DNA of 64,000 nucleotides, from contig NZ_FNSZ01000001.1 in the NCBI RefSeq assembly GCF_900105245.1, positions 1,364,001-1,428,000 on the forward strand. Direction: 5' to 3'. Shown here piece after piece: positions 10,004-42,230 of this stretch. The notes beneath the pieces were generated by a model, which was not told the origin of the DNA, made no database searches, and worked only from the letters and a program-made list of their open reading frames with translations. The DNA is from Streptomyces sp. 1222.5. Lineage in GTDB: Bacteria > Actinomycetota > Actinomycetes > Streptomycetales > Streptomycetaceae. Made by a program: the position numbers and the translations under genes. Position 1 is the first letter of the stretch; every line of letters begins with the position of its first letter.

Positions 10004-10015
10004 TACCGTTCGGTA
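10004..10015. promoter_or_regulatory. Operator-like inverted repeat before the amidase
   Basis: TACCG-TT-CGGTA lies 37 bp upstream of the amidase start. This short symmetrical form is common for TetR-family operators in actinobacteria. No regulator gene is adjacent; the nearest TetR genes have differently spelled operators (TTCGT and GGACC types), so the binding protein is unknown. Confidence 0.45.
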
Positions 10016-10052
10016 GACATCGTGCCCGGAGCCTCCCGGAGGTGCACCCCCC

Positions 10053-11477: not shown

Positions 11478-11503
11478 GCGCGTTCCGCCCTTACTCTGGG
11501 CCC

Positions 11504-11722: not shown

Positions 11723-11869
11723 GGCGCACCAGGTGAGCACGCTCCGCCCCAGGTGAGAGCGGTACGCGTCAAGATTGCAACAAGAAACCGTCAGCGTCTT
11801 CTCGGGGGGTTCCGGGAGGCGCACACTCCCTTCGTTCGGTGCCGAGAGGGCACCTTCCAAAGGGGGCGT

Positions 11870-13360: not shown

Positions 13361-13427
13361 GAAGGAGGTGTCGCGTCGCGGCCGGGGTCCCTCACCGGGG
13401 CTCCGGCCGCGCTGCGCGCGGACCCGG

Positions 13428-13607
13428 TCAGGCCGTGAGCAGGCCGGCACCCAGGGCGAGCAGGGCGACGACCTTGAGGATCTCCAGTCCGACGTACCAG
13501 AAGTGGCCCCGGGAGCAGGGCAGTTCCTCGCCCGCGAGGACCCGGTCGGACCGGCGGTTGAGAGGGGGGCGGACGACGGCGAGCTGGGCGAGGAGCAGGG
13601 CGGCCAC
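13428..13607 (-). CDS. Short membrane-protein frame, probably truncated
   Basis: A GTG-started frame of 59 codons not preceded by a ribosome site encodes a hydrophobic stretch, VRPPLNRRSDRVLAGEE, then CSRGHFWYVGLEILKVVALL and a second helix ending GLLTA. The helix-loop-helix pattern and codon bias look like real protein. The N-terminal helix begins abruptly, so the gene may have lost its 5' part in the deletion-prone region that follows. It converges on the flotillin gene. Confidence 0.4.
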   Translation of the reverse strand: MAALLLAQLAVVRPPLNRRSDRVLAGEELPCSRGHFWYVGLEILKVVALLALGAGLLTA

Positions 13608-13656
13608 GCCGGTTCGGTCAGGGCCCGGCGGGCCGGGACGGCCGGGCCCGGGTGGT

Positions 13657-13840
13657 TCAGGGGAGCGTGGTCGCGGTCAAGTGGGCCACGCAGGTGTCCG
13701 GTTCGGCGAACGGCTCCAGCCCGTGGCCGTCAGGGGAGCCTCCAGCCGGGCCAAGGCGCCCTGCATCAGGCCGTGATGGAGCGGGCACACCAACCGGCCC
13801 ACGCCCGCGTGACGGCCGGTGGCCGGGCGCCCGTTGCGTC
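13657..13840 (-). pseudogene. Possible frameshifted remnant of a small Cys/His protein
   Basis: Read on the minus strand, one frame gives GRLVCPLHHGLMQGALARLE (about 13755-13820). After an apparent 1-nt shift near 13750 another frame continues as GLEPFAEPDTCVAHLTAT and stops at 13657. The joined product would contain CPLHH and CVAH pairs that look metal-binding. No intact start or single frame exists. I cannot name the family, and chance reading of GC-rich DNA is not excluded. Confidence 0.25.
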
Positions 13841-13867
13841 CGCGGCGCCGGGCACTAGGGTGCCCCC

Positions 13868-14314
13868 GTGAGCACGTCTACCGAAGAGAACGTCCCCGGC
13901 CGCCACGGCCGTCATGCCACCACGGAGGCCGACCCGCGCGAGGTCGGCCGGGTGCGCACCGAGTACTCCCCGGCCCACGACGGCGACCCGGACCCCGGAG
14001 AGATCGTGTGGACCTGGGTCCCCTTCGAGGAGAACGACGGCCGGGGCAAGGACCGCCCGGTCCTGGTCGTGGCCCGGGAGGCGGCGGGCACCTTCCTCGC
14101 CGTCCAGCTCTCCAGCAAGCGGCACGACGGCGACCGGGAGTGGGTGCCGATCGGCAGCGGCCCCTGGGACCGGTCGGGCCGGGACTCGTGGGTGGACGTG
14201 GACCGCGTGCTGCGGCTGCACGAGGAGGGCATGCGCCGCGAGGCCTGCGCGCTGGACCGGATGCGCTTCGATCTGGTCCGCCGGCGGCTGCACGAACGTT
14301 ACGGCTGGACCTGA
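13868..14314 (+). CDS. PemK/MazF-family toxin-like protein
   Basis: 148 residues. From residue 40 it follows the MazF fold: GEIVWTWVPFEENDGRGKDRPVLVVA, then FLAVQLSSK and WVDVDRVLRL. Family members are sequence-specific mRNA endonucleases acting in the cytoplasm. The start is GTG at 13868 without a clear ribosome site, suggesting low or leaderless expression. No antitoxin-like small gene precedes it; the upstream DNA is decayed. Streptomyces carry solitary MazF-like proteins of this type whose toxicity is unproven, so it may be a tamed or housekeeping member. Confidence 0.75.
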   Translation: MSTSTEENVPGRHGRHATTEADPREVGRVRTEYSPAHDGDPDPGEIVWTWVPFEENDGRGKDRPVLVVAREAAGTFLAVQLSSKRHDGDREWVPIGSGPWDRSGRDSWVDVDRVLRLHEEGMRREACALDRMRFDLVRRRLHERYGWT

Positions 14315-14387
14315 CCGCGGCTCGGACCGGCGCTCCGCGCGGCCACCACGGCGTCCGCGACCACCCCGGAGTGCGGGGCCGCGCCCG

Positions 14388-15281
14388 TCACGACGGCACG
14401 CGCGCACAGCCCGCCGCTTCCGCGGGGACTTCCCGACGGCGCCCCCCGCCCTGGGCGAACGCCTGTTCGAACGCCGCCCGCACCTCCGCCCCGGGGGTCC
14501 GGTCCAGCACCCCGAACACCACGTGGTCGAAGGAGCGCGCGAACCGGGCACCGGGGCCGAGCAGCGCCCGGAAGGCGGCCGCGACCTGCGCCGGGTCGTT
14601 CTGGAAGACCCCGCAGCCCCAGGCGCCGAGCACCAGTCGCCGGTAGCCGTGCGCCGCGGCCGTCTCCAGCACCCGCTCGGCGCGCCGCCCCAGGACGCCC
14701 GCCAGCTCGGCGGCGCGTTCCGGTGCCGTACGGCGTACGACGCCGGCGTTGGGCGCGGCGGCGGTCAGGAAGCCCGCGAGGTAGGGCTCCGGGAGCAGCC
14801 GTCCCCGGTCGTCGCGGAAGACCGGGACCGCCGGTGAGTGGATCACCCGGTCCGTGTAGAACGGGTCGCGGTCGGCACGGTGGTGATCGTAGAAGGCGCG
14901 GGCCGCCAGCAGGCAGGTGTGCAGCGCCGAGGCGCGGCACAGGGCTTCCTCCTGGGCCTGGGCGCCGTTGAGATAGCCACCGCCCGGGTTCCGCGCGGAA
15001 GCGAAGTTCAGGACGGCGACCGGGGCGCCGGCCAGTCGGCGGGCCGCCTCCAGGCTGCTCTCGCCGGTGACCTCGACGAGGGGGCCCGACCCGCGAACCG
15101 GGTCGCCCTGAGCCGGCGGCGGATCCACGGCCACCGGCTCGGGGCCGAACATCCTGGTGCCCGCCCGCGCGGCCTCGATCGCCGCCGTGAGCGGCACCTC
15201 CCGGCCGTCCGGGGCCGGGTACCGGCCCGCCGCGACGATCTTCTCCGTCTGCGTGGCGATCCCGCGCAGGCGCGCGCTCAC
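14388..15281 (-). CDS. TIGR02452-type microbial poly(ADP-ribose) glycohydrolase-like protein
   Basis: 297 residues from GTG 15281. The N-terminal region (RLRGIATQTEKIVAAGRY) and the macro-domain core match the microbial PARG family. The catalytic signature GGG-x7-QEE is complete (GGG at 100-102, QEE at 110-112). Later motifs include DRVIHSPAVPVFRDD and LVLGAWGCGVFQNDP. Such enzymes cut ADP-ribose polymers or ADP-ribosylated targets. It converges on the MazF-like gene, and the divergent ergothioneine operon starts 278 bp away. No ADP-ribosyltransferase is visible in the window, so the substrate source is unknown. Confidence 0.88.
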   Translation of the reverse strand: MSARLRGIATQTEKIVAAGRYPAPDGREVPLTAAIEAARAGTRMFGPEPVAVDPPPAQGDPVRGSGPLVEVTGESSLEAARRLAGAPVAVLNFASARNPGGGYLNGAQAQEEALCRASALHTCLLAARAFYDHHRADRDPFYTDRVIHSPAVPVFRDDRGRLLPEPYLAGFLTAAAPNAGVVRRTAPERAAELAGVLGRRAERVLETAAAHGYRRLVLGAWGCGVFQNDPAQVAAAFRALLGPGARFARSFDHVVFGVLDRTPGAEVRAAFEQAFAQGGGRRREVPAEAAGCARVPS

Positions 15282-15500
15282 GGCGCCACCCCCGTGGACG
15301 CCGTGCCCGCTGCCTGCGCGGACTCCCCCGTCGTGCTCATGCAGGCATCCTGGGTGATCCTGGTGATGCGGTGCAACGGAGTTTCCCACCCCCGGAACGG
15401 TCCCCGAACGCCTGCGGAAGGGGACATGACCGATCCGGAAACGCACGGCGGGGCACTCTTGTGCGATTTGGCGCGAGGGTCTTGGGTGGGACGAGTGTCT

Positions 15501-15532
15501 GCCATCGGCCCACGCCCCCGTGGGCCGATGGC
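15501..15532. promoter_or_regulatory. 14-bp perfect hairpin in front of egtA
   Basis: GCCATCGGCCCACG at 15501-15514 pairs perfectly with 15519-15532 around a 4-base C loop. It ends 27 bp before the egtA ATG and 14 bp before the AGGAGGA ribosome site (15547-15553). No U-run follows. It lies in the egtA leader or promoter, so it may act as an attenuator, a leader stabiliser, or an operator dyad. Confidence 0.6.
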
Positions 15533-15559
15533 ATGGTGGAATCTCAGGAGGATCCCGGC

Positions 15560-16906
15560 ATGTCCGATTCACAGAGCGACGGTGGTGACTGTACGGACCA
15601 CCGCACCGCCGTCACCGAACCCGAGGTGGAGGCCCTGGTCCGGGGCATCTGCTTCAAGACGGGCCCGCCCCGCGTCCTCGGCGTGGAGCTGGAGTGGCTC
15701 GTGCACGAACTGCGGGAGCCGCGGCTCCCCGTGGCACCCGAACGACTCGAGGCGGTCTACGCCACCCTGCGGGCCGTGGACCTGGGATCGGCGCTCACCG
15801 TCGAACCCGGGGGCCAGCTGGAGCTGAGCTCCCTGCCCGCCGCCTCCCTGACGGAGTGCATCGGCACCGTCTCCGCCGACCTGGACGCCGTCCGCGCCGT
15901 CCTGGCCGAGGACGGCCTCGGCCTCGTCGGCATCGGCCACGACCCCTGGCACCCACCCCGCAGGTTCCTGCACGAGCCGCGCTACGACGCCATGGAGGCC
16001 TGCCTGGACCGGGGCGGTCCGGCCGGCCGCCACATGATGTGCGCCTCGGCTTCCGTCCAGGTCTGCGTGGACGCCGGCCACGAGGAGCCGGGCCCGCTGG
16101 GCCACGCGCGGCGCTGGTGGCTGGCGCACCAGCTGGGCGCGGTGCTGCTGGCCGCGTTCGCCAACTCCCCGCTGATCGGGCAGCGGCCCACGGGCTGGAT
16201 GTCCACCCGGCAGCTGATGTGGATGGAGATCGGCACGGGCCGGGCGGGCGGCCCCCCGCTGGACGGGGAGCCGCGGGCCATGTGGGCCCGGCACGTACTG
16301 GACTCGCCGGTGATGTGCGTCCGCGGCGACGGCGGGCCGTGGGAGGTGCCCGACGGGCTCACCTTCCGGGAGTGGACCCGTTCCCGGTCGCCCCGGCCGC
16401 CCACCCGGGCGGACCTCGACTACCACCTCACCACGCTGTTCCCGCCGGTCCGGCCGCGCGGCCATCTGGAACTGCGCATGATCGACGCGCAGCCCGGGGA
16501 CGACGGCTGGATCGTGCCCCTCGCGGTGACGGCGGCCCTGTTCGACGACCCGGAGGCGGCCGAGACCGCCTACCGGACGGTGAAGCCGCTGGCGGAGCGG
16601 GCGCTGAACCGGCCCGCGCCGCACAACCCGCTGTACACGGACGCAGCCCGGTACGGCCTCGCGGACCCGGAGCTGCAGGACACCGCGGCTGCCTGTTTCG
16701 CGGCGGCGCTGGAGGCCCTGCCCAGGATGGGGGCCACCACCGAGGTCATGGACGCCGTGGCGGCGTTCGTGGACCGCTACGTCGCCCGGGGCCGCTGCCC
16801 GGCCGACGATCTGCTGGACCGGCTGCACGACGGGGAGCCGGCCCGGCACCGGCACGGCCCCACCGGGGGCACGCCCATCTCCCACGGGAAGGACATCCGC
16901 ACATGA
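15560..16906 (+). CDS. egtA: Glutamate-cysteine ligase of ergothioneine biosynthesis
   Basis: 448 residues of the GCS2/EgtA family, with RVLGVELEWLV and EPGGQLELSS in the N-terminal half and HLELRMIDAQPGDDGWIVP in the C-terminal half. It makes gamma-glutamylcysteine from Glu, Cys and ATP, the sulfur donor for EgtB in actinobacteria. A strong AGGAGGA site precedes ATG 15560. Its stop overlaps the egtB start by four bases (ATGA), so the two are translationally coupled. The 277 bp upstream hold the promoter and a 14-bp hairpin. Confidence 0.95.
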   Translation: MSDSQSDGGDCTDHRTAVTEPEVEALVRGICFKTGPPRVLGVELEWLVHELREPRLPVAPERLEAVYATLRAVDLGSALTVEPGGQLELSSLPAASLTECIGTVSADLDAVRAVLAEDGLGLVGIGHDPWHPPRRFLHEPRYDAMEACLDRGGPAGRHMMCASASVQVCVDAGHEEPGPLGHARRWWLAHQLGAVLLAAFANSPLIGQRPTGWMSTRQLMWMEIGTGRAGGPPLDGEPRAMWARHVLDSPVMCVRGDGGPWEVPDGLTFREWTRSRSPRPPTRADLDYHLTTLFPPVRPRGHLELRMIDAQPGDDGWIVPLAVTAALFDDPEAAETAYRTVKPLAERALNRPAPHNPLYTDAARYGLADPELQDTAAACFAAALEALPRMGATTEVMDAVAAFVDRYVARGRCPADDLLDRLHDGEPARHRHGPTGGTPISHGKDIRT

Positions 16907-18240
16907 CCGCCCCCGAGACCGACCCCACGACCGGCGAGACCGACTCCGAGGCCCTGCGCAAGCGGGCGCTGGCCTCGCTGATTTCCGCACGCGAGCGCAC
17001 CACGCTGCTGACCAGCTGCGTCGACGACCCGGACCTGACCGCCCAGCACTCCCCGCTGATGTCGCCGCTGGTGTGGGACCTCGCGCACATCGGCAACCAG
17101 GAGGAGCAGTGGCTCCTGCGGGCGGTCGGCGGCCGGGACGCGATGCGCCCGGAGATCGACACCCTGTACGACGCCTTCGAGCACCCCCGGGCCGAGCGGC
17201 CCTCGCTGCCGCTGCTGCCGCCCGCCGAGGCCCGCGGCTACGCGGCCGAGGTGCGCGGCCGGGCGCTCGACCTGCTGGAAGGGGCGGACTTCCACGGCAC
17301 CCGGCTGACCGAGGCCGGTTTCGCCTTCGGGATGATCGCCCAGCACGAACAGCAGCACGACGAGACCATGCTGATCACCCATCAGCTGCGGAAGGGGCCG
17401 CAGGCCCTGACCGCCCCCGACCCCGAGCCGGTGCCGCTGTTCACCGGTCCGGTCGAAGTCCTGGTGCCGGGCGGCCCGTTCACGATGGGGACGTCGGCGG
17501 AGCCGTGGGCGCTGGACAACGAACGCCCGGCGCACCCGCGGGAGGTGGCGCCGTTCTGGATCGACACGACACCGGTGACGAACGCGGCGTACCAGGCCTT
17601 CATCGCGGACGGCGGCTACGAGACCGAACGCTGGTGGACGCCCGAGGGCTGGGCGCACGTCCGGAAGCACTCCCTCACGGCTCCCCTGTTCTGGCGGCGC
17701 GACGGCGACCAGTGGCTCAGGCGCCGGTTCGGCATCACGGAACAGGTACCGCCCGACGAGCCGGTGCTGCACGTCTGCTGGTACGAGGCGGACGCCTACG
17801 CCCGCTGGGCCGGGCGCCGGCTGCCCACCGAGACCGAGTGGGAGAAGGCCGCACGCCACGACCCGGTCACCGGGCGCTCCCGGCGCTACCCGTGGGGCGA
17901 CGCCGACCCGGCGCCCGAGCACGCCAACCTGGGCCAGCGGCACCTCAGGCCGGCTCCGGCCGGCAGCTACCCGGCCGGTGAGTCCCCGCTGGGCGTACGG
18001 CAGTTGATCGGTGACGTGTGGGAGTGGACGGCGAGCGACTTCCTGCCGTACCCGGGGTTCAGGGCGTTCCCGTACAAGGAGTACTCGGAGGTGTTCTTCG
18101 GGTCCGACTACAAGGTGCTGCGCGGCGGTTCGTTCGCCGTGGACGCGGTGGCCTGCCGGGGCACCTTCCGCAACTGGGACCACCCGATACGCCGGCAGAT
18201 CTTCTCCGGGTTCCGCACCGCCCGCTCGGAGGCCGTCTGA
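16903..18240 (+). CDS. egtB: Hercynine oxygenase (sulfoxide synthase)
   Basis: This 445-residue iron enzyme joins gamma-Glu-Cys to hercynine with O2, forming the sulfoxide. The N-terminal DinB-like domain supplies the iron-binding His triad: His62 (LAHIGNQEEQW), His148 and His152 (AQHEQQHDE). The C-terminal formylglycine-generating-like domain holds PFTMGTS, PVTNAAYQAF, PTETEWEKAA and DVWEWTASDF, ending in FSGFRTA. Length matches mycobacterial EgtB. It starts inside the egtA stop (ATGA) and its TGA overlaps the egtC ATG by one base. Confidence 0.97.
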   Translation: MTAPETDPTTGETDSEALRKRALASLISARERTTLLTSCVDDPDLTAQHSPLMSPLVWDLAHIGNQEEQWLLRAVGGRDAMRPEIDTLYDAFEHPRAERPSLPLLPPAEARGYAAEVRGRALDLLEGADFHGTRLTEAGFAFGMIAQHEQQHDETMLITHQLRKGPQALTAPDPEPVPLFTGPVEVLVPGGPFTMGTSAEPWALDNERPAHPREVAPFWIDTTPVTNAAYQAFIADGGYETERWWTPEGWAHVRKHSLTAPLFWRRDGDQWLRRRFGITEQVPPDEPVLHVCWYEADAYARWAGRRLPTETEWEKAARHDPVTGRSRRYPWGDADPAPEHANLGQRHLRPAPAGSYPAGESPLGVRQLIGDVWEWTASDFLPYPGFRAFPYKEYSEVFFGSDYKVLRGGSFAVDAVACRGTFRNWDHPIRRQIFSGFRTARSEAV

Positions 18241-19019
18241 TGTGTCGTCACCTGGCCTATCTGGGGCCCGAGGAACCGCTCGGCCGGATCCTGACCGAGC
18301 CCCCGCACAGTCTGTTCCGCCAGTCGTGGGCACCGCGGCGGCAGCGGTACGGAACGGTCAACGCCGACGGGTTCGGGGTGGGCTGGTACGCCCGCGAGGA
18401 CCCGGTCCCGGCCCGCTACCGGCGGGCCGGGCCGATCTGGGCGGACCTGTCCTTCGCCGACCTGGCCCGGGTGGTGCGTTCCGGCGCCGTGCTCGCGGCC
18501 GTACGCGACGCGACCCTCGCGGGCGCGGACGCGGAGGCCGCCGCCGCGCCCTTCGCGGCGGGCCGGTGGCTGTTCAGCCACAACGGGGCGATCGCGGGCT
18601 GGCCGGACTCCGGGGCGTCCCTGGTCTCCGCGCTGCCCCCGGTCGACCTGCTGTCGTTCGAGGCCCGCAACGACTCGGCGTTCGTCTGGGCGCTGGTGCT
18701 GCACCGGCTGCGCAGCGGCGACGACCCCGCCACGGCCCTCGGCGAGACGGCCCGCGCGTTCGCCGAGGCGGCCCCCGCCTCCCGGCTCAACCTGCTGCTG
18801 ACGGACGGCGGGACGATCGCCGCGACCGCCTGGGGCGACACCCTCTGGTACCGGACGGAACCCGGCCGGGGCACGGTCGTCGCCTCCGAGCCGTACGACG
18901 ACGACCCGCTGTGGCAGGAGGTCCCCGACCGCACCGTGCTCACCGCGAACAGCACCGGCGTGCTGCTCGCCCCGCTGGAGGACCCGGCGGCCGTCCCACC
19001 TAAGGAGCCCTGTTCGTGA
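18240..19019 (+). CDS. egtC: Gamma-glutamyl-hercynylcysteine sulfoxide hydrolase
   Basis: 259 residues of class II glutamine amidotransferase fold. Cys2, right after the initiator Met, is the nucleophile (MCRHLAYLG). Further family features are NADGFGVGWYA near residue 40, FSHNGAIAGW near 105 and ARNDSAF near 140. It removes the glutamyl group from the EgtB product. Translation is coupled at both ends: TGATG with egtB and GTGA with egtD. Confidence 0.95.
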   Translation: MCRHLAYLGPEEPLGRILTEPPHSLFRQSWAPRRQRYGTVNADGFGVGWYAREDPVPARYRRAGPIWADLSFADLARVVRSGAVLAAVRDATLAGADAEAAAAPFAAGRWLFSHNGAIAGWPDSGASLVSALPPVDLLSFEARNDSAFVWALVLHRLRSGDDPATALGETARAFAEAAPASRLNLLLTDGGTIAATAWGDTLWYRTEPGRGTVVASEPYDDDPLWQEVPDRTVLTANSTGVLLAPLEDPAAVPPKEPCS

Positions 19020-32529: not shown

Positions 32530-33414
32530 ATGCAGTTCCAGCAGCTCCAGTACTTCGTGGCCGTCGCCGAGACCCGGCACTTCACGCGGGCCGCCGAGCT
32601 GGTCCATGTCGCCCAGCCATCACTCTCGCAGCAGATCAAGGCGCTGGAGCGGGAACTGGGCGCGGATCTGTTCCAGCGCGCCCGGGGCAACATCACGCTC
32701 ACCGACGCGGGCGAGGCGCTGCTGCCGCTGGCCCGGCGGATCCTGGCCGACGCGGACACTGCCCGGTACGAGGTGCAGGAGCTGGCGCAGCTGCGGCGCG
32801 GCCGGGTACGGCTGGGGGCGACGCCGAGCCTGTGCACGGGCCTGCTGCCGGATGTGCTGCGCGCCTTCCACGACCGGTACCCCGGCATCCAGCTGCTGAT
32901 CGAGGAGAGCGGTTCGCACGACCTGGTGCGGGAGCTCGCCCGGGGCGCCCTCGACCTTGCCCTGGTGGTACTGCCGCTGCCTACGCCGTCGCCCGCGCTG
33001 ACCACGGTGGAGCTGCTGCGCGAGGACCTGGTGGTGGTGTCCTCGCCCGAGGCACCGGCACCCGGTGGGGGCGGGCGCTCCGTCCGCATCGCCGACCTGG
33101 AGGGTGAGCGGCTGGTGATGTTCCGGCACGGGTACGACCTGCGGGAGCTGACGGTGGCCGCGTGCCGCGCGGAGGGCTTCGAGCCGGACTTCGCGGTGGA
33201 GGGCGGCGAGATGGACGCGGTGCTGGGGTTCGTGCGCGCCGGCCTCGGCCTGGCCGTCGTACCCCGCATGGTCGCGACGCGATCGGGACGCGGACTGCGC
33301 GTGACGCCGCTGGCCCGCCCCGGCCTCCACCGCACGATCGCCCTGGCCCACCGCAGCGACGTGGCCCCGCCTCGGGCGGCCCGGGAACTCCAGCGGATGC
33401 TGGTGGAGCGGTGA
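32530..33414 (+). CDS. LysR-family regulator, likely of the sdh operon
   Basis: 294 residues. The winged helix is at residues 1-60: QLQYFVAVAETRHFTRAAEL, then VAQPSLSQQIKALERELG. The effector-binding domain follows (VRLGATPSLCTGLLPDVLRA; GLGLAVVPRM). ATG 32530 gives the standard family start. Its divergent position to sdhCAB suggests control of that operon, possibly by succinate, fumarate or oxygen state; this is inferred. A possible hairpin (8-bp stem, 33436-33455) separates it from the converging CHAT gene. Confidence 0.92.
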   Translation: MQFQQLQYFVAVAETRHFTRAAELVHVAQPSLSQQIKALERELGADLFQRARGNITLTDAGEALLPLARRILADADTARYEVQELAQLRRGRVRLGATPSLCTGLLPDVLRAFHDRYPGIQLLIEESGSHDLVRELARGALDLALVVLPLPTPSPALTTVELLREDLVVVSSPEAPAPGGGGRSVRIADLEGERLVMFRHGYDLRELTVAACRAEGFEPDFAVEGGEMDAVLGFVRAGLGLAVVPRMVATRSGRGLRVTPLARPGLHRTIALAHRSDVAPPRAARELQRMLVER

Positions 33415-33435
33415 GGGCGGGGGTGCGCGGGTGCT

Positions 33436-33455
33436 GCCGCCGGATCGCCGGCGGC
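33436..33455. terminator. Possible bidirectional terminator
   Basis: GCCGCCGG at 33436-33443 pairs with 33448-33455 over an ATCG loop, between converging genes. A second GC-rich dyad follows at about 33508-33530. Weak because GC-rich DNA easily forms short stems. Confidence 0.4.
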
Positions 33456-33537
33456 GAGGTGTCGGTAGCCGGCCGCCGTTGCCGAGGTGCTGGGCACAGG
33501 CGTCGGTGCTGAGGCGCCGGCCGGCCGGTGCCGGGAC

Positions 33538-36500
33538 TCAGGCGCCCGTGTGCAGGTAGGCCGCCCAGCGGGTCGGGGTCGCCGGGTAGGCGTCGCGGAC
33601 GGCGCGCTGCGCGTGGTTCAGGGCCTGGGCCGAGGCCGTGGTGTCCGGGAGGACCGTGCCGCCCGCGGTGAGGACGGCGTAGAGCTCGCGGGCCATGCCG
33701 GGGGTGTCCGGGGCGTGCCACAGGGTTCCGACGACCCCCCGGAATCCGGCGAGTTGGAAGGCGGCGGCCAGGTGCATCGGCTCGTCCGGCAGCCCGGGGT
33801 GCGCCTCGGCCGTGCTGCACGCGGACAGGATCGCCAGCGCGCCGTGGTCCAGGGGGGTGTCCTGGATCTGTCCCGCGGTCAGTGTCTCCCCCCGCCCGAG
33901 GTGCAGGCCGCCTCCGCGCAGCAGGCCGAGGTCGATGTCGTTGTCCCCGTGGCAGGCGAAGTGGACCAGGGTGTGGTCGCGCAGCGCGGCCGTCACCGTG
34001 GCGAGGTCGGCATCCTCGCCGAGCAGCAGCCGCGCGCCGGGCAGCGCGGCGAGCACGGTGCGGGCCTCCCGTTCGGCCAGGGGCAGCGGCGGGCCGTGCC
34101 GACTGTGCGGCACGGCGACGACGAGCGAGCTCGGCCCCGGTCCGCCGGCCGGGGTGCCGGACACGTCCCGCAGGGAGTGGGCCAGCGCCCCGAGGGTGGG
34201 GGTGTAGGACGGAGTCACCCGGTCGATGACGGTGGGCGGGGGTTCGGCCGCCGGGTCCTGGGCACGGGCCGCGGCCTCGGCGGCCGTGCGCGGGTGGTGG
34301 CCGGCCGCGTGGAGGGGGAGCCGCACCACCGGCCCCACAGGGCACCACCACAACCGCGGCTTCGGGCGGCCCGGTGGGGCCGTGCCGAGCCTGGCCAGGA
34401 CGGGCGAGGTCACCTCGTCCCACAACCAGCCCAGGATGTCGTGCAGTTCGGACTGCGCGGCCTCGCGGCGGTCCGGCCCGGCGGTCGAGTCCACCGCGTC
34501 CCGCAGGGCCGTCCTCAGCTCGGCGATGTGCGCGCGTGCCGCCGTGCCGGTCAGGCCCGGCAGCGGAATGTGCTCGACGGGGTCCGCGGGGTCGGCCGGG
34601 ACGAGCAGGGCGTAGCCCTGGGACCCGTGGGTCAGGACGTACGCGACGGCCGCTCCGGCGGTCGCGGCGCGCAGGGCGGCGAGCGGCCGGGAGACCGTCA
34701 GTTCGGCGAACCGCGGATCCGCGGCCAGACCCTCGACGATGCGGTCCCGTTCGGCGGCGAGCCTGCGGGTCTGCGCCGCGTAGTCGGAGCGCGGGTCCCA
34801 GCTGCGGGTCGAGTCCGTCGTGGTGCGGCCGAAGCGGTGCTGTGTGACCGCACTGACCTCGATGCGTCCGACGTTCGCGAAGATGTCCGCGGTGGCCAGG
34901 TGCCGGTCGATCGTCTCCAGGCGCTCGGCGGCCGCGGGGTCGATCCTGCGCAGTTCCGCCCGGTGCCGCCACGACATGATCGCCTGCCCGTAGAGGATGG
35001 CGCGGCCCTTCTCCAGCAGTTCCACCGCATGTTCGGGGCGGCCGGCCTCGATGGCCGCGATCGCGGCCTGCACGGCCAGTTCGGGTGCTCTGCGGGCGAT
35101 GCCCTTGCGGACCGGACCCGCGAAGGAGCGCCGGGCCAGTGCCGGCACCTCCGCGAGAGCGGCCTCCAGTGCCCGCAGGGCGTGCTCGGGGTCGCCCGCG
35201 GCCCGCGCGAGGGCCGCGCGCTTCTCCTGCGCCTCGAACCGCAGCGACGTGGTGAACCGTTCGTCCTGGGCGACCTCGTCCCAGGCGGTCAGGGCTTCGG
35301 CGCGCAGCGCCGTGTCCGGGCGCGGATCGGACGCCGTCAGGTCGTACAGCGCCGTCGCGGCGCGCGCGAACAGCAGCAGGCGCGTGGTCCGGAACCAGTC
35401 GCCGTCCGCGGTCCGGGCCGCCGCGTCCCGGGCCAGGCCGACCGCGTCCTCGAGGGTCGGCCGGTCGCCGGTCTCCCGGTACCGCCGGTACAGCACCTGG
35501 CTGATGGAGCTGGTGAAGCGGGGCAGGTCGGGGTGGTCCGCCGGCAGCCGGGCCAGCCCGTCCCGGTAGAGCCGCTCGGCCTCGGTCAGCCGGCCCACGG
35601 CGTCCTCCCCCTCGCCCAGGGTGTAGTGGTCGGCGAGGTTGAGCAGCAGTTCGTGCTTCCGCGGGTGGTCCTCGGGCAGCGCGTCGGCGGCCTCGTGGGC
35701 GAGGGCGAGTGCCTCCTCCGCCAGTTCCCGGTCCTCCGCGTAGTGGGCCAGTTCACGGAGGGCGCCCGCCAGGTTGGACGTGCGGAACGGACGGAAGGGC
35801 TCGTTGTCCGGCGTCAGCGCCAGGGCCTGCCTGCGGATGTCCACCGACTCCTCCAGGAGCGTGCCGTCCGACAGCACGTTGGCCACGCGGACCGTCAGCA
35901 CGGCCAGCCGCTCCAGCAGAAGGGGCGTGTCGGGGGCGTCGGCCAGGAGCGCGGATCTGGCCCGTCTGGCGTCGGCCAGCGCCTCCTCCACGAGGCGCTC
36001 GTCGGGCCGGGGGGACGCCTCGGCCGCGAGGTAGAGGGTGGCTTCGGCCAGCACGGTGAGCGCCCGTCCGGCCAGCCGGTGCCCGGGCGGCATGGCGTCG
36101 GCCGCCTGCACGGCCCACACCCGCGCCTGGCCGGGCGTGGCGCCGTCCCCGCCCTCCAGCCAGACGTGCATCTCGGTCCGGGCGGCCAGCAGCAGGGCGC
36201 CGGGACGGTCCTCGTCGTGACCCGGCACCGAGGAGACCAGGGCCAGCGCGGCCTTCCGCCGCTCGGTCCACGGGGCGTCCGCGTCATCGGCGGTCGCCCA
36301 CCAGGCACGGTGGCGCCCCTCGGTCCCGGGGGCGTACGGCACCGCGGGCTCGCCCAGCACGGCGGCGACCGTCTCCGCACCGAGCCGGGGCACGGCCCGC
36401 GCCTCCAACTGCGCCAGCCATTCGCGGTGTTCGGGGCCCCGGCGGTCGTCGGGGTGCGTGGCCCGCACCAGGTCGCGGGCCGCGGTCAACGCCTCGGTGA

Positions 36501-37335
36501 GGGTCTGCGGCGCGCCGGTGGCCTCGTGCCGTGCGGTCAGAGTGGTCACCAGGTCGCGTGCGTGGTGCAGCGCGAGCGGGGCGCACCGGCCGGCCGCCTC
36601 GACGGCCCGGCGCAGATCCTGGACGGCGCGCTCCAGGCCGGTGGGGTCGGCCTCGGGGTCGTACAGGGCGGTCGCACAACGGGCCTTGATCAGCAGCCGG
36701 TTGGCGAGATGCGGATCGTGTCGCACCTCCTGCCGGGCCGTGGTCTCGACGGCGAGGCGGGCGGCCCGCTCGGCCTCCGCCCGCCAGGAGCGATGGGCGC
36801 CGAGGTCGCCGAGCAGCAGGAGCAGATGAGCGTGGTCGGTGAGGAGAGCGGCCCGCTCACGCGCCGACAGGCCCTTCTCCTTGAGCCACCGCCGCTGCAG
36901 GTCCAATGCCGTGTCCAGGGCGGAGAAGTCCCGCTGCTCCTCGAACCGGCCCATGAGGAACTGGAGTTGATCGACGCGGGCCGGGCCGAGGGCGATCGGC
37001 TCCCGCTCGCCGTCCGCGGTCTCCCGGCCCCCGCGCCGCGGCCACCGCCGGCCACGGCGCGCCGCGTCCGCCTTGCGCAGGTTCTCGCGCAGTGCGTCGG
37101 GCAGCGGCGGCAGGCCCTCCGGTACGCCGTCCAGCACGCCGGCGAGCTGGACGGCGGCGCGGAATTCCAGCAGGCCGTTCACGCCCGGCAGATGGAGGTA
37201 GCGGTACCAGCGGAGCAGCGCGAGCCGGGCGGTGTCCGCCGCGTCCGCGCCGGGCGGCGGCGGCAGCGTGGCCGGAGCCAGAGACGGCAGGTCCCGGCCG
37301 TCACCGGTGTGCAGATACCGTTCCAGATCCTCCAT
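33538..37335 (-). CDS. CHAT-domain (caspase-like protease) protein with TPR-like repeats
   Basis: 1265 residues from ATG 37335 (GGGGGTGAGG upstream). Residues about 1-780 form a long alpha-helical solenoid of tetratricopeptide-like repeats, rich in ARAATALYD, LAEATLYLAAEASP and DPEHALRALEAALAEVP patterns. The C-terminal 300 residues are a CHAT domain: substrate-pocket strands, then catalytic His1129 in VHFACHGDND and Cys1173 in ILSACSTAEA, followed by AFQLAGFRGVVGTLW. CHAT proteases (separase/caspase clade) act in bacterial conflict, cell-death and signalling systems, with TPRs sensing partners. No signal peptide. A two-gene unit is divergent, 144 bp away. The target is unknown. Confidence 0.9.
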   Translation of the reverse strand: MEDLERYLHTGDGRDLPSLAPATLPPPPGADAADTARLALLRWYRYLHLPGVNGLLEFRAAVQLAGVLDGVPEGLPPLPDALRENLRKADAARRGRRWPRRGGRETADGEREPIALGPARVDQLQFLMGRFEEQRDFSALDTALDLQRRWLKEKGLSARERAALLTDHAHLLLLLGDLGAHRSWRAEAERAARLAVETTARQEVRHDPHLANRLLIKARCATALYDPEADPTGLERAVQDLRRAVEAAGRCAPLALHHARDLVTTLTARHEATGAPQTLTEALTAARDLVRATHPDDRRGPEHREWLAQLEARAVPRLGAETVAAVLGEPAVPYAPGTEGRHRAWWATADDADAPWTERRKAALALVSSVPGHDEDRPGALLLAARTEMHVWLEGGDGATPGQARVWAVQAADAMPPGHRLAGRALTVLAEATLYLAAEASPRPDERLVEEALADARRARSALLADAPDTPLLLERLAVLTVRVANVLSDGTLLEESVDIRRQALALTPDNEPFRPFRTSNLAGALRELAHYAEDRELAEEALALAHEAADALPEDHPRKHELLLNLADHYTLGEGEDAVGRLTEAERLYRDGLARLPADHPDLPRFTSSISQVLYRRYRETGDRPTLEDAVGLARDAAARTADGDWFRTTRLLLFARAATALYDLTASDPRPDTALRAEALTAWDEVAQDERFTTSLRFEAQEKRAALARAAGDPEHALRALEAALAEVPALARRSFAGPVRKGIARRAPELAVQAAIAAIEAGRPEHAVELLEKGRAILYGQAIMSWRHRAELRRIDPAAAERLETIDRHLATADIFANVGRIEVSAVTQHRFGRTTTDSTRSWDPRSDYAAQTRRLAAERDRIVEGLAADPRFAELTVSRPLAALRAATAGAAVAYVLTHGSQGYALLVPADPADPVEHIPLPGLTGTAARAHIAELRTALRDAVDSTAGPDRREAAQSELHDILGWLWDEVTSPVLARLGTAPPGRPKPRLWWCPVGPVVRLPLHAAGHHPRTAAEAAARAQDPAAEPPPTVIDRVTPSYTPTLGALAHSLRDVSGTPAGGPGPSSLVVAVPHSRHGPPLPLAEREARTVLAALPGARLLLGEDADLATVTAALRDHTLVHFACHGDNDIDLGLLRGGGLHLGRGETLTAGQIQDTPLDHGALAILSACSTAEAHPGLPDEPMHLAAAFQLAGFRGVVGTLWHAPDTPGMARELYAVLTAGGTVLPDTTASAQALNHAQRAVRDAYPATPTRWAAYLHTGA

Positions 37336-37479
37336 CGCCTCACCCCCGTACACCCGCTGAACGATCCGCCGCCCTCCATGGTTCCCCGCCGTCCCGTGTC
37401 CACCACCGTCCGTGACGGGTAGGTTGATCCCGCCGGCCACGGGAACGGTTGTGGCGCGAGGGAGTTCGAGGAGCCGTCG

Positions 37480-37875
37480 ATGGACGAGATCGCGGAGCGG
37501 CTGGCGCGGCTGTGCGCGCAGGCGGGGGACGACGGGCTGCGGGAGCGGGCCGAACGCTACGGCGTGGGCGAGGCGCTGACCCGGCTGGGCCAGGCCGCCC
37601 GGGCGGGCAGTCGCACCGCCGCGGTCACCGCGGACCTGGACGCCCTGGACGACGCCTTCGCCCGGCACGGCATCGACGGGCTCACGGTGGGGCCGCGCGG
37701 CTTCGAGCCGCTGCGGGGCGGGCGCGCCCATCCCGTGGTCACGGTGTGGGGCTGCCCGGCCGAGGCGTCCTGCTCGCGTCTCGAACCGCAGGAGCGGCAG
37801 CGCGGGTCGCGGACCCCGCCGCCCGCGTGCGCACTGACCGGCACCCCGCTGGTCCCCCGGAAGATCCGGCTGTGA
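37480..37875 (+). CDS. Small unknown protein with C-terminal Cys pattern, CHAT-associated
   Basis: 131 residues. The N-terminal 60 are helical (DEIAERLARLCAQAGDDGL). The rest holds VTVWGCPAEASC, then RTPPPACALTGTPLVPRKI, a Cys-x5-Cys plus Cys pattern that could bind zinc. ATG 37480 lies after GGAG. Its stop overlaps the next gene's GTG start (GTGA), so the two are coupled. It is divergent from the CHAT gene. I do not recognise the family; its place suggests an adaptor or regulator. Confidence 0.75.
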   Translation: MDEIAERLARLCAQAGDDGLRERAERYGVGEALTRLGQAARAGSRTAAVTADLDALDDAFARHGIDGLTVGPRGFEPLRGGRAHPVVTVWGCPAEASCSRLEPQERQRGSRTPPPACALTGTPLVPRKIRL

Positions 37876-38789
37876 TCACGGTCCTCGCCGAACTGGGCAA
37901 GCAGATGGCGGGCCGCTGGGCGGCGCTGCTCGTCCTGCCGGGTGCCTTCTACGTGTCCACCGCTGCCGTCGCGGTGCTGCTCGGCCACGGGCACGCGCTC
38001 GACGCCGGGGTGCTGACCGCCTGGCTGGACTCCGTCGCCGCCGCTCCGGCCAGCGGCCGCTTCGGGACCGTGCTGATCGGCGCCGCCGGGTTCACGGCCG
38101 TCTCGGCCGCCGCCGGTCTGGCCGCCGCGGCGGCGGCCCAGCTCGTGGAGCGGGTGTGGTGGGCCTCCGGCGAGGAGCCGCTGCTGCGCACGCTGGCCGC
38201 CTCCCGCGGACGGCGCTGGCAACGGGCCGAGGAGCGGGTGGCCGCCGCGCTGCGGGAGTTCACGGCGTCCGGCGGTACCCCGCCTACGGCGCAGGCGCTG
38301 CGGGCGGCGATCGCGCGACGCGACGCGATATGCCCGGAGCCCGCCTCCCGGCCGACCTGGATGGGGGACCGTCTGTACGCCGTGGACGAGCGGGTGCACG
38401 ACACCTACCACCTGGATCTGACGGCCGCCTGGCCGCGGTTGTGGCTGCTGGTGCCGGACGCGGCACGCGCGGAGCTCTCCGAGGCGCGGGCCGGTGTCGG
38501 GGCCGGCGCCCGGCTCATGGGCTGGGGCCTGCTGTATCTGCCGCTGGCCGCGGTGTGGTGGCCGGCCGCCGTTCTCGCCGCCGGGGTCCTGATCGCCGCC
38601 CGTCACCGCGCCCGGCTCGCCGTCGGCGTGCAGGCCGACCTCGTGGAGGCCGCCGTCGACCTCTACGGCCGCGATCTGGTGGTGCAGTTGGGCATCGACT
38701 GCCCGGGCCGGCTGGGTCCGGCTGAAGGCGACACGGCGACCAGCCTGCTCCGCAAGGACCGCACGGACCTGTCCCGATTCGGCGACTGA
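37872..38789 (+). CDS. Membrane protein coupled to the CHAT-associated small protein
   Basis: 305 residues from GTG 37872. Membrane helices lie near 16-36 (WAALLVLPGAFYVSTAAVAV), 56-82 (FGTVLIGAAGFTAVSAAAGL), and 218-255 (GWGLLYLPLAAVWWPAAVLA). Between them is a cytoplasmic block with ERVWWASGEEPLLRTLAASR and PTWMGDRLYAVDERVHDTYH. The C-terminal tail DLVVQLGIDCPGRLGPAEGD reads like a membrane-proximal helix seen in proteins next to vWA or CHAT conflict genes; that link is from memory and weak. It might be the membrane effector or sensor of the locus. Confidence 0.75.
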   Translation: MITVLAELGKQMAGRWAALLVLPGAFYVSTAAVAVLLGHGHALDAGVLTAWLDSVAAAPASGRFGTVLIGAAGFTAVSAAAGLAAAAAAQLVERVWWASGEEPLLRTLAASRGRRWQRAEERVAAALREFTASGGTPPTAQALRAAIARRDAICPEPASRPTWMGDRLYAVDERVHDTYHLDLTAAWPRLWLLVPDAARAELSEARAGVGAGARLMGWGLLYLPLAAVWWPAAVLAAGVLIAARHRARLAVGVQADLVEAAVDLYGRDLVVQLGIDCPGRLGPAEGDTATSLLRKDRTDLSRFGD

Positions 38790-38844
38790 GGCACGGCGGC
38801 GCCGGCCTGTTTCCTCCACCCCTGACGCCCCGGCCCGGCCTCCC

Positions 38845-39993
38845 TCACGCCTCGGACGAGGTCGGCGCCGGACGGGTGTCCAGTCCGGCGGTCGTGGAGA
38901 CGGTGACCCTTGGCGCGGCGGTCAGGCGGATCGAGAAGCCCTCCCGGAAGCCCAGGAGGCCGCGGCGGACGGCCGGTTCCTGGTCCGGGTGATGCGGGAC
39001 GGAGCGGATCAGACGGTCGTGCCGGGTGCGGTCGCGCGCGGACATCAGCCTGCGGTCGACCGTCAGCGACGGCGGCGCGCTGAGCCGCGGCCAGTGCGCG
39101 TGGTGCACGAACACCCGTACCCGCAGCCGTCCCTCCCCCAGCTCCAGGTCCGCCTCCGCCAGGTGCTCCCCCAGCGCGCCCAGCGCGTCCGCCACCTCGT
39201 CCGCCGTGGCCCGCAGATCCTCGGCGGGGTCGTACGGCTCGGGCAGGTCCCGCGGGTCGACCACGGCACAGAGGATGCCGAGGTCGTCGTCGCGCAGCTC
39301 GCGTCCGGCGCCCATGTCCGTGCGGGCGCCGGCGTGCACACCGAGCGTCAGTTCGGCGCCGTAGCGGCTCGCCGTCATCGCCACGGGGAACAGGGCCGTG
39401 TAGCGCAGCAGCCGGGCGCAGCCGATGAGCACCCGGCCGACCGGCCACACCGCGGACGTGCCCAGGACCCGGACGACCTCCTCGTGCCGGCCGAGCCGGC
39501 GCAGCACGTCGGCGTAGTCCCGCCGTACGGCCTGTGTCGTGCCGTCCTCGGGACCGAAGGTGTGCTCGCAGGCGTCGACGAACGCGGGGTACTCGTCGGC
39601 CGCGGCGGTCAGGTCGCCCTTGCGCACGAGCACGCTCAGGAAGTTGTTGGCCGCGTTCAGCGTCAGCGGGTGCGCGGGCCCCAGCATGGCGGCGCGCTCG
39701 CCGTGCACCTGGCCGAAGAGATTCAGCGCCTCGTCCCAGCGGCGCAGGTCCCGCAGCACCAGGGCGAGGTTGTTCAGGCAGGTGAGGGTGAACAGGTGCG
39801 AGGAGCCGAAGCGGCGCGCGAACCCGTCCCAGGCGAGCGAGTACTGCTCCACCGCCTCGATCAGCTGCCCCGACTCGTGCAGGGCGCCGGCCAGATCGTG
39901 GCGGGCCGCCGTGGTCTCGAGCTCCCGGAAACCGTGGCGTGCCTCCAACCGGGCCACCTCGGCGCGTAATGCGTCGACCGAGCGATCCGTCAT
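38845..39993 (-). CDS. Tetratricopeptide-repeat protein of unknown role
   Basis: 382 residues. Residues 1-170 hold kinesin-light-chain-like TPRs: AARHDLAGALHESGQLIEAV, LNNLALVLRDLRRWDEALNL and LNAANNFLSVLVRKGDLTAA. A middle segment (190-235) includes a hydrophobic stretch VLIGCARLLRYTALFPVAMT. The C-terminal part is a beta-rich domain, with DDLGILCAVVDPRDL, LRVRVFVHHAHWPRLS and GFREGFSIRLTAAPR. It converges on the membrane protein above. Such TPR proteins often pair with NTPase or CHAT conflict genes; whether it belongs to that locus is unproven. Confidence 0.8.
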   Translation of the reverse strand: MTDRSVDALRAEVARLEARHGFRELETTAARHDLAGALHESGQLIEAVEQYSLAWDGFARRFGSSHLFTLTCLNNLALVLRDLRRWDEALNLFGQVHGERAAMLGPAHPLTLNAANNFLSVLVRKGDLTAAADEYPAFVDACEHTFGPEDGTTQAVRRDYADVLRRLGRHEEVVRVLGTSAVWPVGRVLIGCARLLRYTALFPVAMTASRYGAELTLGVHAGARTDMGAGRELRDDDLGILCAVVDPRDLPEPYDPAEDLRATADEVADALGALGEHLAEADLELGEGRLRVRVFVHHAHWPRLSAPPSLTVDRRLMSARDRTRHDRLIRSVPHHPDQEPAVRRGLLGFREGFSIRLTAAPRVTVSTTAGLDTRPAPTSSEA

Positions 39994-40082
39994 CCGGCCC
40001 TCCGTCCTCGGTTACGGTCAACGACGCGTGGCGGGCGCGGTCGCGGCCCGCCCGCCGTAGTCGTACCCCGTTGGAGCGGCCG

Positions 40083-42230
40083 TCAGCCCGTCGCGTCCAC
40101 CAGCGCCAGCTCGTGCAGCCGTTCCGGCGGTCCCGGCCGGGCGTAGTACCAGCCTTGGGCCGTGTCGCAGCCCAGTATCCGCAACTGCTCGGCCTGGGCA
40201 CCGGTTTCGACGCCCTCCACCGTCACCGCGAGGTCGAGGCTGTGGGCGAGGGAGACGATGCCCTCGACGATCTTCAGGTCGACCGGATCGGCGGGGAACT
40301 GCTGCATGCCCTGGGTGAAGGAGCGGTCCAGCTTCAGGACGCTGACCGGCAGCCGGCGGAGGTTCGCCAGGTTCGAGTAGCCGGTGCCGAAGTCGTCCAG
40401 GGCGATGTCGACACCCATCTCCGCGAGCCGGCGCAGGGGTTTGAGCAGTTCGTCGTCGGCGCCGATCAGCGCGGACTCGGTGACCTCCAGGCACAGGGCT
40501 TCCGGGGTGACACCCGCGCGTTCGAGGATGTCGACGGTGTCCTGGACCAGGCCCGGATGGCTGAGCTGGCACGGGGACAGGTTGACGTTGATGCGCAGGG
40601 GCCCGGCGCCCGTGTCCGCACCGTGGCGCTCGCGCCAGGCGCGGGCCTGCCGGATGGACTCCTCCAGGACCCAGCGGCCCAGCGGCACGATCAGGCCGGT
40701 GTGTTCGGCGAGCGGGATGAAGCGGTCGGGGCCGAGCACGCCGTGCTGCGGGTGCAGCCAGCGGACCAGGGCCTCGGCACCGCGGACGCTGCCGTCGCCG
40801 AGGTGCACGAGCGGCTGGTACTCGATGAAGAACTCACCGCGTTCCAGGGCGGTGGGCAGGGCGGTGGTGAGCCCGTGGCGGGTGATCACGCGGGCGTCGG
40901 CCTCGGGATCGGCCAGTTCGGAGCGGTTGCCGCCCGCGGACTTGGCCCGGTACATGGTGATGTCGGCGCTGCGCAGCACCTCGGCCGCGGTGCGCTCGCC
41001 CGCCGGGCCCTCGACGATGCCGAGGCTGCCGCGGACCAGCAGGTCCCGGCCGTCGATGCTGATCGGGGTGACCAGCGCGTTCATGATCCGCTCGGCGAGC
41101 TCGTCGACCTCGCGCTCGGTGCCGGGGCCGGTGGTCAGGGCCACGAACTCGTCGCCGCCGAGCCGGGCGACCATCTCGCCGGGCGCGGTCGCGCAGGACT
41201 GGAGCCGGTCGGCGACCTCCACCAGCAGCCGGTCGCCGGCCGCGTGACCGAGGCTGTCGTTGACGGTCTTGAAGCCGTCGAGGTCGAGGTAGCACAGCCC
41301 GAAGCGCTGGCCCTCAGCGGCGCCCCCGAGGGCCTTCTCCAGCCGCTCGAAGAACAGGGTGCGGTTGGGCAGTCCGGTGAGTGCGTCGTGCGTGGCCTCG
41401 TAGCGCAGCCTGAGGTTGAGCAGGCGTCGCTCCGTGGTGTCCTCCATGAGGGCCAGCTGGTACTGGGGCTCGCCGTCGGCGTCACGGAGCAGGGACACCG
41501 TCAGATTGGTCCACAGCACCGTGCCGTCGGGCCGGTTGAAGGCCTTCTCCACGTGGTAGTGCTCGCGCTCGCCCCGCACGAGCTCCTCGTAGAGCCTCCA
41601 CGTCTGCGGGGCGTCCTCGGGGTGGGTCCACTCCAGCACCCGCCGGCCGCGCAGCGAGTTCTCGGGCAGCCCGAACATGCGCAGCAGCGCCTCGTTGACC
41701 TGGAGGACGTTGCCGTCCAGGTCGGCGATGCCGATCCCTATGGCCGCGCCCTCGAAGACGGCGCGGAAGCGTGCCTCGCTCGCGTGCAGCGCCTGGGCCA
41801 CGGCTCCCTGCGCGGCCAACGCGGCCTGGGCGATGGCCTCCTGTTCGGCGAGGGTCCGCTCGCGCAGTGCCCGGGCGTAGCCGGCGGCCATCGCGTGCTG
41901 CAACCGCGAGGAGCGCACGCGCAGTTCGTCCTGGGGGCCGTCCTCGCCGCAGTACAGGACCAGGTAGGCGTCGACGCAGTCGAGGGTGCGGCTGAGCGCC
42001 TCGGGGTCGGTGCAGTGGGCCGCCACCAGAGCGGCGCCGACCGCCTTCGCGGCGTCCGCGTCGAGGGCGCGGGCCCGCAGCAGCTCGCTCAACCGGCGTG
42101 CCAGGGGCAGCAGGCGCTCCTCGAACTCGACGCGGGTGAGCGACGTCGAGGTCACCGGGAAGACCGCCCGGCTCCAGATCGTCGTCAGCCGGCGCAGTCT
42201 GTCCTCCGGCCCGTCCGGTTCCGCGCTCAC
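40083..42230 (-). CDS. rmdA: PAS-GGDEF-EAL c-di-GMP enzyme RmdA
   Basis: 715 residues from GTG 42230. Residues 1-145 are an N-terminal helical region found in Streptomyces RmdA. A PAS domain spans about 151-268 (ARFRAVFEGAAIGIGIADLD), GGDEF about 270-440 (LGGDEF at 357-362, active-site form intact), and EAL about 455-705 (EALVR near 486; VTES and DDFGTGYSN also intact). It can therefore both make and cleave c-di-GMP. In S. coelicolor RmdA (SCO0928) affects aerial growth. Its GTG overlaps the stop of the upstream methyltransferase (GTGA), so the two are translated together. Confidence 0.95.
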   Translation of the reverse strand: MSAEPDGPEDRLRRLTTIWSRAVFPVTSTSLTRVEFEERLLPLARRLSELLRARALDADAAKAVGAALVAAHCTDPEALSRTLDCVDAYLVLYCGEDGPQDELRVRSSRLQHAMAAGYARALRERTLAEQEAIAQAALAAQGAVAQALHASEARFRAVFEGAAIGIGIADLDGNVLQVNEALLRMFGLPENSLRGRRVLEWTHPEDAPQTWRLYEELVRGEREHYHVEKAFNRPDGTVLWTNLTVSLLRDADGEPQYQLALMEDTTERRLLNLRLRYEATHDALTGLPNRTLFFERLEKALGGAAEGQRFGLCYLDLDGFKTVNDSLGHAAGDRLLVEVADRLQSCATAPGEMVARLGGDEFVALTTGPGTEREVDELAERIMNALVTPISIDGRDLLVRGSLGIVEGPAGERTAAEVLRSADITMYRAKSAGGNRSELADPEADARVITRHGLTTALPTALERGEFFIEYQPLVHLGDGSVRGAEALVRWLHPQHGVLGPDRFIPLAEHTGLIVPLGRWVLEESIRQARAWRERHGADTGAGPLRINVNLSPCQLSHPGLVQDTVDILERAGVTPEALCLEVTESALIGADDELLKPLRRLAEMGVDIALDDFGTGYSNLANLRRLPVSVLKLDRSFTQGMQQFPADPVDLKIVEGIVSLAHSLDLAVTVEGVETGAQAEQLRILGCDTAQGWYYARPGPPERLHELALVDATG

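Follow-up and report, generated by a model that had tools for sequence, protein, structure and literature searches.

Gene content and insertion site of the block

The window analyzed here is a stretch of 64,000 nucleotides from the genome of Streptomyces sp. 1222.5 (8.85 Mb; contig NZ_FNSZ01000001.1), in which the gene for a large protein with a CHAT peptidase domain lies divergently from a pair of genes for 2 unannotated proteins, which we refer to as SMALL and MEM. A gene for a second protein with tetratricopeptide repeats (TPRs) converges on the pair, and the 4 genes together form a block (Table 1). The gene layout, the GTGA overlap within the pair, the residues His1129 and Cys1173, and the convergent TPR gene were all re-read as the first-pass annotation had described them. 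The CHAT gene lies in an open frame that spans 33538..37731 on the minus strand, and its start was taken as the ATG at 37335 (GGGGGTGAGGCG upstream), which gives a protein of 1265 amino acids; alternative in-frame ATGs would give 1271 or 1397 amino acids. The sequence GAGGAG was found upstream of the SMALL start, and MEM starts with a GTG codon at 37872, within the GTGA that overlaps the end of SMALL.

Table 1. Features of the four-gene block in the window
Feature	Position	Strand	Basis
CHAT protein, 1265 aa: N-terminal part TPR-like, CHAT (caspase-fold) peptidase domain at the C-terminus	33538..37335	-	Pfam PF12770
His1129 codon (CAC), catalytic dyad	33949..33951	-	read from DNA and aligned CHAT domains
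Cys1173 codon (TGC), catalytic dyad	33817..33819	-	read from DNA and aligned CHAT domains
Divergent intergenic region, 144 bp, between the CHAT gene and SMALL-MEM	37336..37479	none	
SMALL, 131 aa: N-terminal helices, linker of low confidence, and cysteine motif at the C-terminus	37480..37875	+	family HMM, structure model
Cysteine motif C92-P-x4-C98 ... C117 of SMALL, predicted zinc-ribbon-like	37753..37830	+	
MEM, 305 aa: predicted membrane protein, all-helical model	37872..38789	+	
MEM motif RPTWMGDR, residues 160-167	38349..38372	+	
MEM motif WPRLW, residues 187-191	38430..38444	+	
Accessory second TPR protein, 382 aa, converging on MEM	38845..39993	-	TPR_12
Four-gene block, LysR gene to GGDEF gene	33418..40066	none	missing there in relatives

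The large protein belongs by sequence to the CHAT peptidase family PF12770 and is a predicted peptidase. The domain covers residues 967 to 1264, with an E-value of 2.3e-32 and a score of 113 bits against a curated Pfam cut-off of 24. Its TPR match was weak and below the cut-off (TPR_10, E 0.0092), and the earlier label "TPR-like" is fair, but no more than that. The 382-amino-acid protein matched TPR_12 with an E-value of 4.7e-15, and scored 77.4 bits against the TPR protein of the FxSxx-COOH system (NF040586), below the cut-off of 300. Among the 4 window proteins, Pfam matches above the cut-off were confined to the CHAT domain and to the TPRs found in the 382-amino-acid protein; NCBIfam gave nothing above its cut-off, and PADLOC 2.0.0 no match at E≤1. 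SMALL and MEM were thus without a match in Pfam (E≤1 for MEM), NCBIfam and PADLOC.

The block was missing at this site in all 10 relatives in which both flanks were covered. DNA similarity to these relatives stops at 33414-33431, where a LysR gene ends, and resumes at 40066-40087, where a GGDEF gene ends. Because the similarity breaks on both sides, we conclude that a stretch of about 6.65 kb with exactly these 4 genes was gained or lost as a unit. One further relative (L192) showed the left edge only, and another (L196) ended at the LysR gene. The LysR and GGDEF genes are nearly adjoining in 4 relatives (L198, L200, L201, and L202) and enclose different cargo in 2 others (L193 and L195). Across the loci L192 to L203, the gap between the 2 genes (33415-40082 in the window) is a variable site, which is nearly empty, or holds 3 other genes, or holds the module. 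We consider the block to be more than a chance neighborhood, because its parts co-occur in other loci and because it behaves as an inserted block.

The SMALL-MEM cassette and the linked peptidase genes

On their conservation, SMALL and MEM are 2 real protein families that form a conserved, uncharacterized cassette, and the pair was not described in the literature titles or abstract openings searched. Single-sequence searches found relatives of MEM in 36 of the 121 genomes of the genus, own genome included, and relatives of SMALL in 6 of the 121. A large protein set contained 381 relatives of MEM at E≤1e-3; among the 120 listed, the names shown were all actinobacterial and none had a precomputed Pfam domain.

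The structure model of SMALL, with a predicted local distance difference test (pLDDT) value of 86.8, consists of helices up to residue 61, a linker, and short strands that carry the cysteines. The linker joins the 2 parts and is the least confident stretch, with pLDDT values below 50 at residues 74 to 77, and no motif was common to most SMALL linkers. The cysteines, from which a zinc ribbon is predicted, were conserved in the linked loci (C92 in 97/97, C98 in 95/97, C117 in 97/97, and the N-terminal C12 in 92/97, with one locus entered twice among the 97 proteins). Hydropathy gave no hydrophobic segment for SMALL.

MEM was modeled with helices only (pLDDT 93.7), 4 of which are long (residues 2-37, 64-97, 196-226, and 231-272). 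Both motifs listed in Table 1 lie in a helical domain between the long helices (residues 103-193). Residues P161, T162, and G165 were nearly invariant in the alignment of MEM relatives (A2), and W187 was invariant in 29 sequences. The number of membrane passes is uncertain, because hydropathy gave 3 hydrophobic stretches, near residues 19-37, 67-92, and 225-243, against the 4 long helices of the model. A comparison of the models with folds in the PDB gave no match strong enough for a claim.

The distribution of the cassette was studied in a scan with one genome per species, in which 177 relatives of MEM were confirmed; the 80 best of these, from 19 actinobacterial genera, make up the named loci. 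Stretches of up to 9 kb on each side were searched with profiles built in this analysis, and CHAT was counted as present if a match of more than 300 nucleotides lay within the stretch. SMALL was located directly before MEM in 78 of the 80 named loci, and a CHAT domain was found within the stretch in 71. Among the 9 loci without a counted CHAT, 3 (L110, L137, and L138) lie within 4.2 kb of a contig end on one side, and 2 Nocardia loci (L153 and L167) contained only short CHAT matches. The other genomes of the genus had 53 listed MEM places, 43 of which were covered by 40 stretches, while 10 weak ones were left out. These 40 stretches, partial or broken MEM copies included, held SMALL in 31 and CHAT in 31, and the CHAT gene ran past the contig end in L051 and L055. 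The locus L042 is the same as L117, and L041 is the same as L093.

The layout seen in the window, where the CHAT gene lies upstream of the pair and points away from it, was the commonest and accounted for 56 of the 71 named loci and 16 of the 31 genus loci. The spacing between SMALL and MEM was at most 20 nucleotides in 94 of the 97 loci having all 3 genes, and a 4-nucleotide overlap was possible in 55 of them, using the in-frame start nearest to the SMALL stop. MEM and CHAT distances were correlated over 96 of the 97 loci (r 0.69, with 0.39 as the top of 2000 within-genus shuffles), and likewise over the 55 Streptomyces loci (r 0.73, shuffle maximum 0.45). Both residues of the His-Cys dyad were present in 101 of 101 aligned MEM-linked CHAT domains (longer than 600 nucleotides and with E<1e-20; the locus L042/L117 was entered twice). 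The CHAT domain ended within 20 amino acids of the stop codon in 94 of 95 linked loci, and the linked CHAT proteins (n=95) were 252 to 1733 amino acids long, with a median of 1149, the short ones being perhaps miscalled.

The second TPR gene is an accessory and not a core part. When 924 other proteins at 119 loci were clustered, with the duplicate loci L093 and L117 left out, the largest cluster was a TPR family at 21 loci, which is an upper bound for one TPR family, since repeats make TPR proteins cluster easily. The next cluster, ABC-transporter-like by eye, was present at 13 of the 119 loci. In 9 loci, namely the window, L088, and 7 loci of Micromonospora or Plantactinospora, the gene of this TPR family immediately follows MEM and converges on it.

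A MEM match was also identified on plasmid pC052_A of Nostoc sp. C052, which was typed as conjugative. Here, a SMALL protein of 126 amino acids (CP...CPTHG) and a MEM protein of 306 amino acids are followed by a protein of 1557 amino acids with a caspase (C14) domain (PF00656, E 4.7e-13), NA-iREase1, NACHT, and WD40 repeats. The latter matched the PADLOC caspase model (E 3.6e-13), and the Nostoc SMALL and MEM proteins had no match in PADLOC. A search with the Nostoc MEM protein gave 1437 relatives, and the names shown among the 120 listed were cyanobacterial. This Nostoc-like branch carries PTxxGN at the RPTWMGDR motif and includes actinobacteria, such as a Rhodococcus member with 39.9% identity over 97%. 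In hhalign, the window-like and Nostoc-like MEM branches aligned with 99.9% over 290 columns. One Nostoc protein of 349 amino acids (P0135) has, by eye, a SMALL-like start followed by MEM from the second long helix, and is perhaps a deletion that fused the SMALL and MEM genes.

Four plasmid neighborhoods were examined: that of Nostoc, with the caspase, one of Rhodococcus opacus, with a CHAT, and 2 of Streptomyces. On the Streptomyces goshikiensis plasmid, the pair is followed by CHAT after one further gene. The plasmid of Streptomyces sp. NBC_00271 carries a distant MEM with a caspase-family gene some 2 kb upstream, and the gene preceding this MEM is without the cysteine motif.

A candidate conflict module and alternative readings

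We regard the module as real, conserved, and uncharacterized, a variant of conflict systems centered on CHAT or caspase peptidases, with a putative function. The variable part in conflict systems usually does the sensing. Because the large protein varies and the pair is constant, we read the former as sensor plus protease and the latter as its membrane partner or substrate. Our tentative reading, which we hold to be quite possible though not yet probable, is that the block encodes a conflict module: the solenoid would detect a threat, and the protease would then act through the membrane pair, thereby stopping or killing the infected cell. The variable part, TPRs or NACHT-WD40 fused to a caspase-fold peptidase, would serve as both sensor and protease, and SMALL-MEM would be the substrate of the protease or what holds it. 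SMALL would link the protease to MEM, and the output would be a cleavage or release event at the membrane. The second TPR protein may provide an additional input or regulate the system. Both the cutting of SMALL or MEM by the protease and the death of the cell are inferred. In the nearest tested precedent, the TPR-CHAT protease Csx29 cleaves Csx30, which inhibits a sigma factor (PMC10028731).

Several observations weigh against a conflict module of this kind. No activity, cleavage, phage, or growth data were found for any part, the pair had no match in 50,697 phage records, and 2 pattern scans of viral contigs gave no confirmed match. The genes flanking the block in the window (sdh, LysR, and GGDEF) are not defense genes. 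The choice of the best 80 of the 177 MEM relatives favors close relatives, and 4 of the named loci (L093, L111, L114, and L148) had no CHAT in about 9 kb on both sides; in L111 (Acrocarpospora, 8639-11858) SMALL-MEM is followed by a WD40 protein, without a CHAT within the stretch. The caspase link in cyanobacteria is one locus, and the window-like and Nostoc-like SMALL branches aligned in hhalign with only 86% over 103 columns.

Further points on the same side came from the CHAT proteases themselves. A total of 64 CHAT matches were found in 31 genomes of the genus, 7 of which lie in MEM loci already found. Among the 57 others, 24 were examined, and 3 of these (L205, L207, and L210) carry a distant MEM. 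MEM was therefore present at 10 and absent at 21 of the 31 CHAT loci examined. The check named in the first-pass annotation, whether the neighbors co-occur with the CHAT gene, was thus positive when viewed from the pair and weaker when viewed from the CHAT gene, where the result partly agrees with the refuting outcome given there: MEM mostly implies CHAT, but CHAT does not imply MEM. The interpretation of that annotation is partly supported. In a tree of 52 CHAT domains of the genus, the 34 MEM-linked ones did not group. The linkage label changed 13 times on this tree, at least 8 of which were forced by well-supported branches, which is hardly below the mean of 15.2 in shuffles, 55 of 500 of which were as low; 22 of the 49 inner branches of the tree were unresolved. 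Because the tree scatters the MEM-linked CHATs, the pairing is loose at depth and the distance correlation reflects shallow linkage. The cassette seems to have moved between CHAT proteases rather than to have descended with a single one, since the MEM-linked CHATs are not one clade and most of the CHAT loci examined are without MEM.

A second CHAT locus in one genome (L084:4414-5040) groups with the MEM-linked CHATs and has no MEM; its CHAT was called only as short pieces, and it is perhaps a decayed module.

The roles could also be reversed, with MEM as the sensor or anchor and the protease as the effector, such that MEM and SMALL tether the CHAT protein to the membrane and envelope damage frees it to cut many proteins of the cell. 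The better conservation of MEM than of SMALL in the single-sequence searches (36 vs 6 of the 121 genomes), the helical domain that MEM carries between its long helices, and the lack of a hydrophobic segment in SMALL, which could bridge MEM and the protease, are all in line with such an arrangement. We nevertheless find it unlikely, as variation is greatest in the part that is fused to the protease (TPR-like in actinobacterial loci, NACHT-WD40 in Nostoc), whereas MEM is constant, and the segment charges do not fix the topology of MEM. A set that regulates normal growth or development, for example membrane protein turnover or sporulation, rather than immunity, would agree with its presence in many genera that grow as mycelia and with its absence from the phage records. 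This is quite improbable, given the patchy distribution of MEM (36 of the 121 genomes), the variable site occupied by the block, and the carriage on plasmids, as well as the finding of up to 3 MEM matches per genome, some of which are only pieces, and of copies with broken frames (L072 and L080).

Very improbable, in our estimate, is a scheme modeled on Csx29 and Csx30, in which the protease destroys SMALL as a regulator with a cysteine motif, the output is transcriptional, and MEM only anchors SMALL. The 2 parts of SMALL are indeed joined at its least confident stretch, cleavage of a sigma-factor inhibitor by a TPR-CHAT protease is on record (PMC10028731), and a cluster that looked sigma-factor-like by eye was found near 7 of the 119 loci. 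This number is, however, no more than that of other generic clusters in the same neighbor list, and a linker motif common to most SMALL proteins was not seen.

The reading as a conflict module can be widened to a proposal that we consider rather doubtful, in which SMALL-MEM would be a portable membrane executor used by different sensor-proteases with a caspase fold in multicellular bacteria, namely TPR-CHAT proteins in mycelial actinobacteria and caspase-NACHT-WD40 proteins in cyanobacteria. The cassette would then be an all-helical counterpart of the gasdermin principle, passed by plasmids between proteases and phyla. Multicellular bacteria often have CHAT and caspase-like proteases, of which, to our knowledge, few have known targets. 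A constant cassette with a changing protease or sensor points to a likely substrate or anchor, and 2 small unannotated families are gained as candidate partners of bacterial caspases, together with what may be a helical membrane executor unlike gasdermin. If true, death or immunity modules of actinobacteria and cyanobacteria would be linked by a common component.

Comparison with known systems and other partner pairs

The closest kind is the CATRA ternary system, which was reportedly defined by Burroughs and Aravind in 2020 as a TPR-CHAT or caspase protein, the small protein CATASP, and CATRA-N with a variable effector. The logic is alike, as a large CHAT protein is joined by a small partner and by the product of a third gene, and the window CHAT corresponds to the TPR-CHAT component, although with a weak TPR match. 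The partner families differ, in that SMALL bears a cysteine motif and the third protein is MEM, without CATRA-N, and the module is not CATRA by its defining parts. No Pfam match to CATASP (PF20271) at E≤1 was obtained for SMALL or for 18 of its relatives, and hhalign gave 0.1% against one CATASP. PF20271 was absent from the own genome and was found in 1 of 61 genomes, and neither the 4 window proteins nor 29 MEM proteins matched CATRA-N (PF20269) at E≤1.

A CATRA example was present in a genome of the genus (L083), with a CHAT of 1233 amino acids, a CATASP of 108 amino acids, and CATRA-N fused to GT4-conflict. CHATs of the CATRA system and other CHATs fall among the MEM-linked ones in the tree, where a CATASP-linked CHAT of the L083 stretch is sister to the MEM-linked CHAT of L043 (100/88). 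The L083 stretch (2210-18805) contains 2 CHAT genes with CATASP genes, one with the CATRA-N-GT4 protein and the other with a protein of 238 amino acids that has a hydrophobic start (by eye) and no Pfam match.

The two-gene system of EACC1 and a caspase (Kaur et al. 2020, PMC7159879) is similar, since there too, in multicellular bacteria, a small membrane-linked gene adjoins a gene for a caspase-fold protein and the partners vary. According to that article, EACC1 has a single conserved transmembrane helix with alpha+beta extensions, whereas MEM has 4 long helices, 3 hydrophobic stretches, and no Pfam match, and is accompanied by a separate SMALL gene whose product is without a hydrophobic stretch. 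Csx29 of Craspase, from type III-E CRISPR (PMC10028731), is likewise a TPR-CHAT protease that acts on a specific partner protein; the window CHAT scored 9.8 bits against Csx29 (NF041237), for which the cut-off is 300, and no Cas7-11-like or Csx30-like gene was found among the 4 window genes. Bacterial gasdermins (PMC9079055 and PMC12547243) also combine a protease with a membrane executor. They form beta-barrel pores (PMC12547243), whereas the MEM model is all-helical, and no gasdermin was among the Pfam and PADLOC matches of the window proteins.

Other CHAT genes adjoin a different pair (L211:5151-6139, L215:11368-12248, L216:7241-8184, and L217:7282-8234), which consists of a protein of 108 to 116 amino acids with CPRC and more cysteines and a protein of 175 to 207 amino acids, with hydrophobic segments in the 3 tested. 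The pair is divergent from CHAT in L211 and L215, and a 4-nucleotide overlap occurs in L215 and L216. The pairs of L211 and L216 had no Pfam match, and the L216 protein gave no alignment with MEM; this is seemingly a second, unrelated partner pair of the same layout. Finally, in L208 (9844-10545) a CHAT gene lies beside the gene for a DUF6338 protein (PF19865, E 9.5e-61) with a hydrophobic start, and a protein that is similar by eye is encoded beside the CHAT gene in L209 (12039-12686).

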